In this document: positions 55,561 through 59,722 of the stretch, piece after piece
Numbering within the stretch: position 1 is the stretch's first letter
Layout: each line of letters starts with the position of its first letter
Notes under the pieces: model-generated
What the model saw: only the letters and a program-made list of their open reading frames with translations
What the model was told of the DNA's origin: nothing
Databases searched by the model: none
Position numbers and translations under genes: made by a program
DNA from: Burkholderia latens
GTDB lineage: Bacteria > Pseudomonadota > Gammaproteobacteria > Burkholderiales > Burkholderiaceae
Length of the DNA: 64,000 nucleotides
Assembly (NCBI RefSeq): GCF_001718795.1
Contig: NZ_CP013435.1
Location: 2,852,001 to 2,916,000, forward strand
Direction of reading: 5' to 3'

Positions 55561-56667
55561 TTACAGCAGCGGCCCGCTCAACGCATCGAGCAGCTTGCGC
55601 ACGGGGGCCGGCACGCCATACGCGTCGAGCGCGGCGAGCGGCACCCACGCGGTCTCGGCGTCTTGCGCGCGCGCGGGCGGCGTGCCGTCGTTCTTCAGGT
55701 CGCTCAGCCGCGGCTCGATCTCGAGCCGGAAATGCGTGAACGTATGCGTAAACGCCGCGAGCGGCACCGGGCCGCCGCCGCCGAAGCCGCGCGCGAGTTC
55801 GGCCAGTGCCGCATCGCCGTCGGCTTGCGGCAGGCACCACAGCCCGCCCCAGATGCCAGCTGGCGGGCGCCGCTCGAGCAGCACCGCGTCGCCGTCGCGC
55901 AGCACCAGCATCCAGGTCTTGCGCGTGGGCACGGCCTTCTTCGGCCGTGCGGCCGGCAGTTCGCGCTGCCGGCCCGTGGACTGCGCGACGCAGTCGCCCG
56001 CGAACGGGCAACGCGCGCAATCCGGCTTGCCGCGCACGCACAGCGTCGCGCCGAGATCCATCAACCCCTGCGTATACGCGCTGACGTCGGCTGCGTTCGC
56101 GGCATCCGGCAGCAGCGATTCGGCCAGCGCCCACATGTCGTTCTCGACCCGCTTCTCGCCCGGAAAACCTTCGATGCCGAACACCCGCGCGAGCACGCGC
56201 TTCACGTTGCCGTCGAGGATCGTCGCGCGCGCTCCGTACGCGAACGATGCGATCGCCGCTGCCGTCGAGCGGCCGATGCCCGGCAGTTCCGCGAGCGCGT
56301 CAGGCGTCGACGGGAATACGCCGCCATGCTCGGCAGCAACCACCTGCGCGCAGCGGTGCAGGTTGCGTGCGCGCGAGTAATAGCCGAGGCCGGCCCATAG
56401 CGCCATCACGTCGTCGGCCGGCGCGGCCGCAAGCGCGGCGACGTCGGGAAAGCGCTCGAGAAAGCGCGTGTAATACGGAATGACGGTCGAGACCTGGGTC
56501 TGCTGCAGCATGATTTCCGACAACCAGATCCGGTATGGATCACGGGTGTTCTGCCACGGCAGGTCGTGGCGGCCGTGCTCGCGCTGCCACGCGATCAGGC
56601 GCGTGGAGAACGAACGATGCAGCGGCGTGACGGGAAACGGAGCGGGGGCGATGCGGGGCGGCTTCAA
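55561..56667 (-). CDS. mutY: MutY, adenine DNA glycosylase
   Basis: The 368-residue product has the HhH-GPD fold with LPGIGRSTAAAI and the catalytic Asp in ILDGNVKRVLARVFG. The [4Fe-4S] cysteines are C-x6-C-x2-C-x5-C in CVRGKPDCARCPFAGDC. The C-terminal Nudix-like domain (about 235-350) recognises 8-oxoG. It removes adenine paired with 8-oxoguanine. The start is a TTG at 56667, just 36 bp after mutM on the same strand; no better start was found upstream. Together they form the GO repair pair. Confidence 0.94.
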   Translation of the reverse strand: MKPPRIAPAPFPVTPLHRSFSTRLIAWQREHGRHDLPWQNTRDPYRIWLSEIMLQQTQVSTVIPYYTRFLERFPDVAALAAAPADDVMALWAGLGYYSRARNLHRCAQVVAAEHGGVFPSTPDALAELPGIGRSTAAAIASFAYGARATILDGNVKRVLARVFGIEGFPGEKRVENDMWALAESLLPDAANAADVSAYTQGLMDLGATLCVRGKPDCARCPFAGDCVAQSTGRQRELPAARPKKAVPTRKTWMLVLRDGDAVLLERRPPAGIWGGLWCLPQADGDAALAELARGFGGGGPVPLAAFTHTFTHFRLEIEPRLSDLKNDGTPPARAQDAETAWVPLAALDAYGVPAPVRKLLDALSGPLL

Positions 56668-56703: not shown

Positions 56704-57531
56704 TCAACGCTGGCAGGTCGGGCAGAAATAGGTCGAACGCTGACCCTGCACGATCTGACGGATCGGCGTGCCGCACACGCGGCAAGGCAGTCCGGCGCGG
56801 TCATAGACGAAGCAGTCGAGCTGGAAATAGCCGCTTTCGCCGTTGCTGCCGACGAAATCGCGCAACGTGCTGCCGCCGCGCTCGATCGCATCGGCGAGCG
56901 TCGCGCGCACTGCGTCGGCGAGCCGCTCGTAGCGCGGCAGCGAAACCTTGCCGGCGGCGGTCGTCGGCCGGATGCCGGCGCGAAACAGGCTCTCCGATGC
57001 ATAGATATTGCCGACGCCGACAACCATGTCGCCGGCGAGGAGCGCCTGCTTGACCGATACCGTGCGGCCGCGCGTGCGTGCATGCAGGAGCGCACCGGTG
57101 AACGCGGACGAGAACGGCTCGACGCCGAGGCTTGCGAGCAGCGGATGCGCGTGCACGTCGCCCGCTTCGCGCGGGTGCCACAGCACCGCGCCGAAACGGC
57201 GCGGATCGCGGAACCGCAGCACGAATTCGTCGAAGATCCAGTCGATGTGATCGTGTTTCGCGGCAACCGGCACGCCGGCCGCGGGCAGCACGCGCAGCGT
57301 GCCCGTCATCCCGAGATGGACGATGAACCAGCCGGCGTCGACCTCGAACAGCAGGTACTTGCCGCGACGCTCGACGGCGAGCACCTCGCGTGCGCGCAAT
57401 TGCTCGGCGAGTCCGGCCGGCACCGGCCAGCGCAGCATTGCGGTGCGGACGTCGACACGCTCGACGCGGCGGCCCGCGACAAAGGGCGCGATGCCCCTGC
57501 GCGTGACTTCGACTTCTGGCAACTCTGGCAT
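56704..57531 (-). CDS. mutM: MutM, formamidopyrimidine-DNA glycosylase
   Basis: The 275-residue product begins MPELPEVEV, giving the catalytic N-terminal proline and Glu after methionine removal. It has the helix-two-turns-helix region ([20 protein letters not shown]) and a C-terminal zinc finger ([10 protein letters not shown] with CPTC). It excises 8-oxoguanine and ring-opened purines. Its upstream 20 bp lead into the inverted-repeat element at 57551-57834, so the mutM promoter is inside or beyond that element. The ribosome site before the ATG is poor. Confidence 0.97.
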
Positions 57532-57550
57532 GTTTTGCGGGTCTGAGACG

Positions 57551-57834
57551 AGGATCTGTTTACGTACGGAACGCGCATGCGTTGCCGCGAGAACGGCCGC
57601 TCGCGAGACGCGCGACGCCGCGAATACTGACGTACTCGCACGGAGCGCCACGCGGCGAGCGGTCGTTCCCGCGGCAACCCCGAATCGAGAAGTTTATGTC
57701 GGGGGAATGCCCGAAATCGCCCGCATCGCGGCGTCGCTCGGCGCTTGTTCGGTTCGCCAAACGACGCTCGTCGCTTCTTGCCATGCAGGCGATTTCGGGC
57801 ATTCGCATGTGCGTTCCATATGTAAACGGACCCT
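57551..57834. repeat. 284-bp nested inverted-repeat element (outer arms enclosing three hairpins)
   Basis: The outer arms 57551-57581 and 57804-57834 are 31-nt inverted repeats with five differences. Inside them, hairpin A pairs 57581-57604 with 57655-57678 (24 nt, two differences), hairpin B pairs 57678-57683 with 57699-57704 (6 bp, exact), and hairpin C pairs 57705-57726 with 57783-57804 (22 nt, one difference; 17 exact). The elements abut with no spare bases, so the whole folds as a four-way junction. All differences are transitions. It fills most of the gap between divergent mutM and the TPR gene. No protein, tRNA or known riboswitch was recognised in it. Confidence 0.9.
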
Positions 57835-57852
57835 ACCACGATCGTGCGTGTA

Positions 57853-57898: not shown

Positions 57899-59722
57899 AT
57901 GACCCTGCCCTCGAAGATGCTTCTGAAGCGCCCCGCCGCTGCGTGCGGCGCGCGTGCCTTCCCGGTCCGCCGTGCGCTCGGCGCAGCGCTGTTCGCCGCC
58001 TGGACCCTCACCGCCCTCCCGGCTCACGCGCAAGGTCCGGCATCGGACGACACGGAGCCGCAGGGCGCGTTCGAACACGTCATGTCGGACGAGAAAAAGG
58101 ATCTCCCGGGCGTCCCGCTGACGAGCCAGATCGTCTATCAGGTGCTCGCCGCGGAGGTCGCGCTCCAGCGCAACCAGCCGGCACCCGCGTACCAGACCTA
58201 TCTCGCGCTTGCCCGCGACACGCGCGACCCGCGCATGGCGCAGCGTGCGACCGAGATCGCGCTCGGCGCGCAAAGCCCGGCCGATGCGCTGTCCGCAGCC
58301 AATCTGTGGCGCCAGTACGCACCCGATTCGAACCGCGCATCGCAAGTCGACGCCGCGCTGCTCGTGCTCGCCGGCAAGCCGGCCGATGCGCAGCCGATGC
58401 TCGCGCGCGAGCTGGCCCGCGCGACGGGCGAAACGCGCGGCCCCGCGATCCTCGCGCTGCAGGCGCTGCTGGTGCGCGGCTCCGACCGCGTCGGCGGCCT
58501 CGCGGTGCTGAAGGACATGCTGAAGAACGACATGAACCGCCCGGAGGCGCACCTCGCGATCGCGCGGCAGCAACTGGCGGTCGACGACAAGGAAGGCGCC
58601 GCACAGTCGCTGAAACAGGCGCTGCAGATTCGCCCCGACTACCTGCCGGCAGCACTGATGCTGTCGCAGATGGGGCCTGCGGAGCGCGCTGCCGGCATCG
58701 TGTCATTCGAGAAATATGTTCAGCAGAATCCGAAGTCGCGCGACGCACGGCTCGCGCTGTCGCAGCTCTATCTCGCCGACGATCGCCTCGACGACGCGCA
58801 GAAGCAGTTCGAGACGATGCGCAAGCTCGATGCGAAAGATCCGACGCCGCTGATGGCGCTCGCGCTGATCAAGATCCAGCAGAAAAAGCTCGACGACGCG
58901 AGCGCGTACCTGAAGCAGTACGTGCAGCTCGGCGACAAGCAGCCGAACCTCGACGTCGGCCAGGGCTACATCTACCTTGCGCAGATCGCGATCGAACAGG
59001 GCAACGACGCGCAGGCGTCGCAGTGGCTCGACAAGGTCGACCAGACGAGCCAGCACTACCTGCCGGCGCAGATCACGCGTGCGCAGCTGCTGCAGAAGCA
59101 GGGCAAGACAGACGAGGCGCGCAAGGTGCTCGACGATCTGCCGATCAGCGATCCGCGCGACGCGGCCGTCGTCGCGCGCACCGATGCGTCGATCCTGTTC
59201 AGCGCGAAACGCTATTCGGAAGCCGAGGCGCGGCTCGGTCGCGCGGTCGAGGACTTCCCGGACGATCCGGACCTGCGCTACGACTACGCGATGGCGGCGG
59301 AAAAGACGGGCCACTACGCGACGATGGAAAAGCAGCTGCGCGAGCTGATCCGCACGCAGCCGGACAACCCGCAGGCATACAACGCGCTCGGCTATTCGCT
59401 CGCCGATCGCAACCAGCGCCTGCCCGAGGCCAGCAAGCTGATCGACAAGGCGCTGTCGCTCGCGCCCAACGACGCGTACATCATGGACAGCCTCGGCTGG
59501 GTGAAGTACCGGATGGGCGATTCGGCGGGCGCGGCGAAGGTGCTGCGGCGTGCGTACGAATTGCAGCCGAATGCCGAGATCGGCGCGCACCTGGGCGAGG
59601 TGCTGTGGAAGAGCGGCGCGCAGGACGACGCGCGCACCGCGTGGCGTGCCGCGCAGAAGCTCGAGCCCGACAACGAAACGCTCGTGCAGACGCTGAAGCG
59701 CTTGCAGATCAACGGCCTTTGA
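57899..59722 (+). CDS. Exported TPR-repeat protein
   Basis: The 607-residue product has a signal peptide (about residues 1-44, ending LTALPAHA) and at least eight TPR-like helical repeats through the rest, such as HLAIARQQLAVDDKEGAAQS, ARLALSQLYLADDRLDDAQK and NALGYSLADRNQRLPEASKL near the C-terminus. It is probably a periplasmic scaffold for protein contacts. Its stop overlaps the lolB start (TGATG), and the same pair is found in many betaproteobacteria, hinting at an outer-membrane lipoprotein or biogenesis role. The exact partner is unknown. Confidence 0.9.
   Translation: MTLPSKMLLKRPAAACGARAFPVRRALGAALFAAWTLTALPAHAQGPASDDTEPQGAFEHVMSDEKKDLPGVPLTSQIVYQVLAAEVALQRNQPAPAYQTYLALARDTRDPRMAQRATEIALGAQSPADALSAANLWRQYAPDSNRASQVDAALLVLAGKPADAQPMLARELARATGETRGPAILALQALLVRGSDRVGGLAVLKDMLKNDMNRPEAHLAIARQQLAVDDKEGAAQSLKQALQIRPDYLPAALMLSQMGPAERAAGIVSFEKYVQQNPKSRDARLALSQLYLADDRLDDAQKQFETMRKLDAKDPTPLMALALIKIQQKKLDDASAYLKQYVQLGDKQPNLDVGQGYIYLAQIAIEQGNDAQASQWLDKVDQTSQHYLPAQITRAQLLQKQGKTDEARKVLDDLPISDPRDAAVVARTDASILFSAKRYSEAEARLGRAVEDFPDDPDLRYDYAMAAEKTGHYATMEKQLRELIRTQPDNPQAYNALGYSLADRNQRLPEASKLIDKALSLAPNDAYIMDSLGWVKYRMGDSAGAAKVLRRAYELQPNAEIGAHLGEVLWKSGAQDDARTAWRAAQKLEPDNETLVQTLKRLQINGL

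Follow-up and report, generated by a model that had tools for sequence, protein, structure and literature searches.

The palindromic element at the mutM locus

The window, a 64-kb stretch of the Burkholderia latens genome, carries mutM on the minus strand (56704..57531; Pfam Fapy_DNA_glyco, H2TH and zf-FPG_IleRS), followed on that strand by mutY (55561-56667; Pfam HhH-GPD and NUDIX_4). A TPR-repeat protein gene (57899..59722, plus strand; Pfam TPR families) is read in the opposite direction to mutM. The element studied here occupies 57551..57834, limits common to its dispersed copies, and has no strand assigned. Between it and the two ATG start codons lie 19 bp on the mutM side and 64 bp on the TPR-gene side; an earlier note on this DNA gave 20 and 65 bp. 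A simple scan found no sigma-70-like promoter or intrinsic terminator near the element.

The outer arms and inner hairpins are present as the earlier note described them. The left terminal inverted repeat has 31 nt (57551..57581, plus strand; tip AGGATCTGTTTAC, family consensus AGGGTCTGTTTAC), as has the right one (57804..57834, minus strand). Three hairpins, again without assigned strand, lie between them. Hairpin A (57581..57678) has arms of 24 nt at 57581-57604 and 57655-57678 and a conserved apical part. The short hairpin CCCCGA/TCGGGG (CCCC..GGGG in the family), at about 57678-57704, has an A-rich and variable loop. Hairpin B (57705..57804) has long arms, 57705-57729 and 57780-57804, and an apical CTTGTTTGG..CCAAACGGCGC motif, which is the IS110 insertion site in two relatives.

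Both strands of the window copy fold as an outer helix enclosing the three hairpins, and each strand folds far below its shuffles. As DNA with 20 bp flanks the copy reached -106.6 kcal/mol (z -7.3; 0/100 shuffles as good), as plus-strand RNA -175.2 kcal/mol (z -10.7; 0/200) and as minus-strand RNA -193.3 kcal/mol (z -15.4; 0/200). A chance origin of the palindrome is ruled out by these shuffles, none of which gave an equal fold. The claim that the junctions contain no unpaired bases is right as an approximation and too strict as worded, since the folds show 0-1. Likewise, the mismatches are all transitions, as had been claimed, and their number is seven rather than eight: 7 of the 63 arm pairs scored are non-Watson-Crick (4 G-T and 3 A-C). 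The window copy is an old, degraded copy of the family, and a family profile search detected no second copy in the 64 kb.

Distribution of the family

The family was studied through its copies in relatives' genomes. A 601-bp query including the flanks matches all 65 Burkholderia genomes because the flanking genes are conserved, and the unit 57551-57835 recurs with the same limits at many other places in these genomes. The search of other Burkholderia genomes that had been proposed thus revealed a dispersed multi-copy element with fixed ends. The 284 bp alone match in 64 of 398 Burkholderiaceae genomes and 5 of 25 genera, namely in 48 of 61 Burkholderia genomes and 16 genomes of four other genera; a phylum-wide draw of 398 genomes gave one match, again a Burkholderia (G001). 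In both searches the two best candidates were scored per genome. The loop pattern of hairpin B found at least 120 stretches in named species genomes, the 80 matches listed belonging to Burkholderia, Paraburkholderia, Caballeronia and Trinickia, the genera to which we assign the element. Among plasmid records 8 of 72,556 match (Burkholderia 6, Paraburkholderia 1, Caballeronia 1), and a phage origin gained no support from 50,697 phage records, none of which matched. The loop pattern also matched two stretches of viral contigs. One of them, L386:637-924, is an intact copy in an IMG/VR contig, flanked CT...AG within the first 1500 bases read.

Inward-facing end pairs were counted by eye. With a GGGTCTGTTTAC-like tip there were 11 units in G007, 10 in G011, 5 in G034 and 4 in G041, composites and shortened units included; with AGGGCCTGTTCNCG there were 9 in G023, 6 in G011, 4 each in G034 and G036, 3 in G041 and none in G018, shortened units and one 35-bp palindrome included. 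By genes predicted with a home-made codon score, 92 independent loci comprise 45 between tandem genes, 21 divergent, 9 convergent, 14 within a predicted gene and 3 at edges. One copy in Paraburkholderia sprentiae sits between two annotated genes that share a strand, where an SMP-30 family gene has its stop. The family is a dispersed mobile repeat that is apparently non-coding.

The mutM site is one such place. Its copy was matched in eight genomes (G034, G035, G036, G007, G006, G005, G062 and G054), being split over two contigs in G054 and 252 bp long in G062. Six genomes (L072-L077) have an internally deleted remnant, and the 14 genomes inspected in which the element is missing have a compact site (L058-L071), where the join is not exact. 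The absence from these 14 genomes rules out a mutM-specific riboregulator, and the structured 5' leader of mutM that the earlier note had considered would be at most a by-product of insertion. As mutM is on the minus strand only 19 bp away, a promoter on the far side of the element might place the element in the mutM transcript; the highly structured leader that mutM would thereby have gained would be an accident of where the insertion happened. Upstream, the mutM frame stays open as far as a GTG at 57651 (57532-57651 of the window, minus strand) and so takes in part of hairpin A; gene-annotation software may for this reason place the start of mutM inside the element.

Ends and empty sites

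The ends of the element can be written as Y-TA[GGGTCTGTT...AACAGACCC]TA-R. Among 73 distinct, near-complete copies T precedes AGGG in 61 and A follows CCCT in 63, and one step further out stands C or T on the left (66/73) and G or A on the right (59/73). The window copy has A as its right neighbour and, on the left, G in place of the usual T. Of 69 sites that differ in their flanks, 42 have complementary second bases against 27.6 expected (reached in 0/2000 shuffles), and there was no complementarity at the positions beyond. End bases and complementary second bases together give the picture of a YTAR target with duplicated TA, Y-TA[GGG...CCC]TA-R.

If the element inserts in this way, then we can ask: what do relatives without it have at the same place? 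Empty sites, the search for which the earlier note had recommended, were found at 16 loci. The joined flanks of 17 copies were compared with 65 genomes, and 15 of these queries, in addition to mutM, gave orthologous loci without the element; for L022 and L095 no empty site was among the matches listed. TA was judged on the matches listed for each site, at most 14 or 8. It stands at the join in some relative at nine of the 16 sites: in the rows listed, L092 (3/3), L097 (8/8), L018 (6/6) and L023 (1/1) have it as such, L012 (2/2) and L039 (6/6) next to one to three additional bases, L028 (5/6) next to a single one, L085 (2/8) also with extra bases, and L102 in 2/25. The other seven sites have no TA in the rows listed. 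Here we found CA at L099 (7/7) and L096 (7/7), TG at L034 (3/3) and L084 (14 rows of 16), and no TA at L020 (5 rows, TG in one), L087 (14 rows) and mutM (14 genomes). TG or CA throughout at four of the seven non-TA sites means that the TA may come with the element. With TA at the join in nine of 16 sites, TA targeting is the simpler view, against which the seven sites stand; we favour insertion in lineages that had TA over an element that brings it.

Many copies, fixed ends and empty orthologous sites together support a non-autonomous mobile element, a reading that the earlier note had offered among others.

Two subfamilies with one fold

The family has at least two subfamilies. Ends like AGGGYCTGTTCACGCTAATAACGGGCTTGCG mark the second, whose stem sequences are not those of the first; the mean identity between the two is 70% (14 against 14 representatives). 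Both share apical motifs, and in both the outer stem is followed by hairpin A, the CCCC..GGGG hairpin and hairpin B in that order. In an alignment of 29 sequences, 98.7% of 2812 cells are paired, against 86.7% after shuffling and 34-39% after sliding. Pairs changed on both sides number 39 of 97 (28.0 shuffled) and the covariation score is 0.330 (0.109 shuffled); none of 500 shuffles reaches the observed pairing, both-side changes or score. The number of further pair types, 76, is hardly above the 72.4 of the shuffles, 49 of 500 of which reach it. In alignment A1, with 60 copies, 30 of 99 pairs show both-side changes. Covariation between the arms is strong and beyond both shuffles and slides.

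Could the fold itself be what is inherited? The mobile element would then hand on a DNA fold, a closed four-way junction with fixed loop motifs that its mobilising enzyme reads as a cruciform or a folded single strand; both arms would be rewritten together, so that pairing and loops are retained while the stem sequence is free. Several empty joins with TG or CA would agree with such a unit carrying its own TA; on balance we regard this version as unlikely. Quite unlikely, in our estimate, is a DNA structure under selection, with equal constraint on both strands; the reader of this cruciform or folded single strand would be either the enzyme that mobilises it or a nucleoid protein. Fold and loop motifs common to two subfamilies with different stems would suit it, as would symmetric mismatches and the closed multibranch layout, but we identified no enzyme or binding protein, and shortened derivatives exist whose ends are intact. 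One-hairpin forms of about 180-230 bp occur, as do end-only palindromes of 34-55 bp with little beyond the terminal repeats (L159:301-336, L169:301-355, G036:C1:3671188-3671222). The full fold may thus be dispensable for persistence.

Mismatches in the arms

Selection on one RNA strand is expected to tolerate G-U on that strand and not A-C. In the 102-element counts, from which copies outside 280-292 bp were excluded, the 63 arm pairs of the 101 copies other than the window copy contain 53 G-T, 17 A-C and 20 other mismatches next to 6273 Watson-Crick cells. Since 32 of the 53 G-T fall in the single column pair 25/265, the remainder is 21 G-T against 17 A-C. Variants of transversion type occur in 21 of 32 variable arm pairs. 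Nearest-neighbour comparisons (n=81) gave 88 matched double changes, 47 of them transversions, against 75 cells with a mismatch in one of the two copies compared (41 G-T, 18 A-C, 16 other).

In the eight mutM orthologues, of 28 cells departing from the commonest state nine are matched double changes, the others being sorted by script into 7 G-T, 4 A-C and 8 other. Among the changes, A-T has become C-G in L001, as has G-C in L006, and for neither is a route through G-U possible. If all eight copies descend from one insertion, then matched change occurs in place, without transposition. The similar rarity of G-T and A-C and the many double transversions point to arms corrected at the DNA level rather than to an RNA strand under selection. 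The pairing of stems already present can be fixed by template switching, according to the accessible part of one source (PMC8794818).

These data bear directly on a structured regulatory RNA or a family of mRNA leaders, with selection acting on the fold of a single transcribed strand. Such a family would explain the very stable fold, the strong covariation and the conserved loop motifs. It would also agree with some asymmetry between the strands. Among the pattern loci (88 elements kept of 120, 32 being without terminal repeats by the rule used) the minus-strand RNA is more stable than the plus-strand RNA in 67 of 88 copies; two pairs beside the tip of hairpin B are G-U or U-G on the plus strand in 29/29; and at independent sites between tandem genes the plus strand is opposite to transcription in 32 of 45 (32 to 13, P 0.007). 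Against it stand the equal rarity of G-T and A-C in the arms outside one column pair, the many transversion-type double changes, the location of copies at unrelated sites often missing in relatives, and the absence of an Rfam match: the window stretch gave chance-level MIR918 scores (best E 0.014, far below the gathering score) and four relatives gave no match. We consider this explanation very unlikely. The earlier note's statement that there is no sign of one RNA strand being specially preserved thus agrees with the arms at family level (21 G-T, 17 A-C) and needs qualifying for the weak strand signs elsewhere; the transcribed fold may have a secondary effect on neighbouring genes.

IS110 passenger and associated repeats

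In G011 two copies (L118:300-1726 and L119:300-1726) are 1427-bp units whose hairpin B has an IS110-family element inserted in its loop. That the family is a deletion derivative of an IS110-family element, moved by the IS110 transposase, is extremely improbable despite these two units having the element's ends and an IS110-type transposase inside hairpin B, because a third G011 copy of the IS lies in unrelated DNA outside the palindromic element (L144) and because, of the 65 genomes, G011 alone has a close full-length relative of it. IS110 was therefore rejected as parent element, and its insertion in the two copies is a passenger. Matches to it at E 1e-60 or better occur in nine of the 65 genomes, those outside G011 being 53-57% identical if full-length and up to 71% if partial. 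The two composites differ at 10/1433 positions; six of these form three matched pairs in the ends, as would be seen if the interior had been converted into a resident copy or if the ends had changed in concert. The IS of L118, L119 and L144 resembles the IS110/IS1111 types that target palindromes.

Some smaller repeats accompany the family. A 23-bp REP-like hairpin, CCCCAAGGGGACTTCCTTCGGGG, was found in 11 of 439 loci (L098:1053-1075, L121:499-521 and nine others), and in element variants of ~312 bp it has varying positions within hairpin B; it is perhaps a separate REP-like repeat. A lone TAGGGTCTGTTCATGCG stands ahead of apparently one gene in several genomes (L164, L165, L166, L177; ~position 301 or mirror) and is possibly a fixed remnant of a related element. 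In L163 and L178:335-640 the right end of a copy abuts another TAGGGTCTGTTCA sequence, so that the TA of an older end may have served one of them as insertion site.

Proposed mobilisation and relation to known elements

The 284 bp are probably a non-autonomous, MITE-like palindrome that depends on a transposase acting in trans, inserts at YTAR and undergoes correction of its arms at the DNA level. A transposase would recognise the ends (tip GGGYCTGTTY) and insert the unit at YTAR with duplication of TA, as IS630-type or IS5/IS427-type enzymes do. Complementarity of the arms would be owed mainly to template-switch (quasi-palindrome) correction of the DNA, to which selection for a perfect palindrome perhaps adds.

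No autonomous element with matching ends was found in the genomes and loci examined. End pairs at IS-like distance were limited to the IS110 composites and two poorly matching pairs. A pattern that excluded the present element gave 52 places among the matches listed, in 31 of 65 genomes, and the 20 loci taken from it were mostly without a matching second end. The ends compared with plasmids gave no transposase named under the matches, the Burkholderia records examined carrying 1-4 annotated features each.

Elements of the IS5/IS427 group and of the IS630 type have YTAR or CTAG preferences. Most listed IS427-group elements make 2-bp duplications (available part of PMC3281130), and RUP is attributed to IS630-Spn1, with TA targets (available part of PMC2229807). 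We found no IS5/IS427 or IS630-type transposase with the ends of the present element.

Bacterial MITEs that end in TA and form long stem-loops are a recognised class, as far as the accessible text of the review tells (PMC2229807): Correia/NEMIS, ERIC/RU-1 and RUP are short, non-coding and intergenic, have inverted terminal repeats and TA termini, and form long stem-loops when transcribed. The present element is best placed among such TA-ended, MITE-like palindromic elements, but it is about 285 bp long against under 200 bp for those named, contains three hairpins inside an outer stem and has two subfamilies with differing stems and shared loops. Its end sequence differs, we take it, from the Correia and RUP ends. 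Nor is it a REP/RAYT palindrome, a likeness that the earlier note had also considered, being 285 bp with 31-nt terminal repeats and not a short single palindrome. The organelle double-hairpin elements, with compensated stems, are likewise mobile palindromic units, judging from part of the literature on them; they occupy other genomes, are shorter and, to our knowledge, have no TA-bounded terminal repeats. We know of no sequence relation to Coxiella QMITE2. The likeness there is that an IS110/IS1111-type element is inserted in a palindrome of a MITE, as IS110 is in hairpin B, and the target named there is a GTAG palindrome (PMC10969869, in the part available).

The statement that no named family has this layout agrees with the lack of an Rfam match at gathering score and of a description in the open-licence literature, as far as its texts were accessible. 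We recognised no description of the family there, and a literature search with the end sequences gave unrelated matches. The word Burkholderia is absent from the accessible text of a review of prokaryotic MITEs (PMC10969869) and from that of the older review tabulating TA-ended elements (PMC2229807); the main text of a transcription-start study of B. cenocepacia J2315 has neither "palindrom" nor "mutM" (PMC4603805).

The MITE-like reading explains a recurrent, strongly structured intergenic repeat in medically and agriculturally weighty bacteria. Its unusual trait is the joint change, at the level of DNA, of the two arms of each palindrome, which can mimic a conserved RNA fold. The family is a natural case of strong covariation without the RNA wobble pattern and calls for caution in RNA discovery by covariation only. 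With many copies at datable sites, it makes arm correction by template switching directly measurable.
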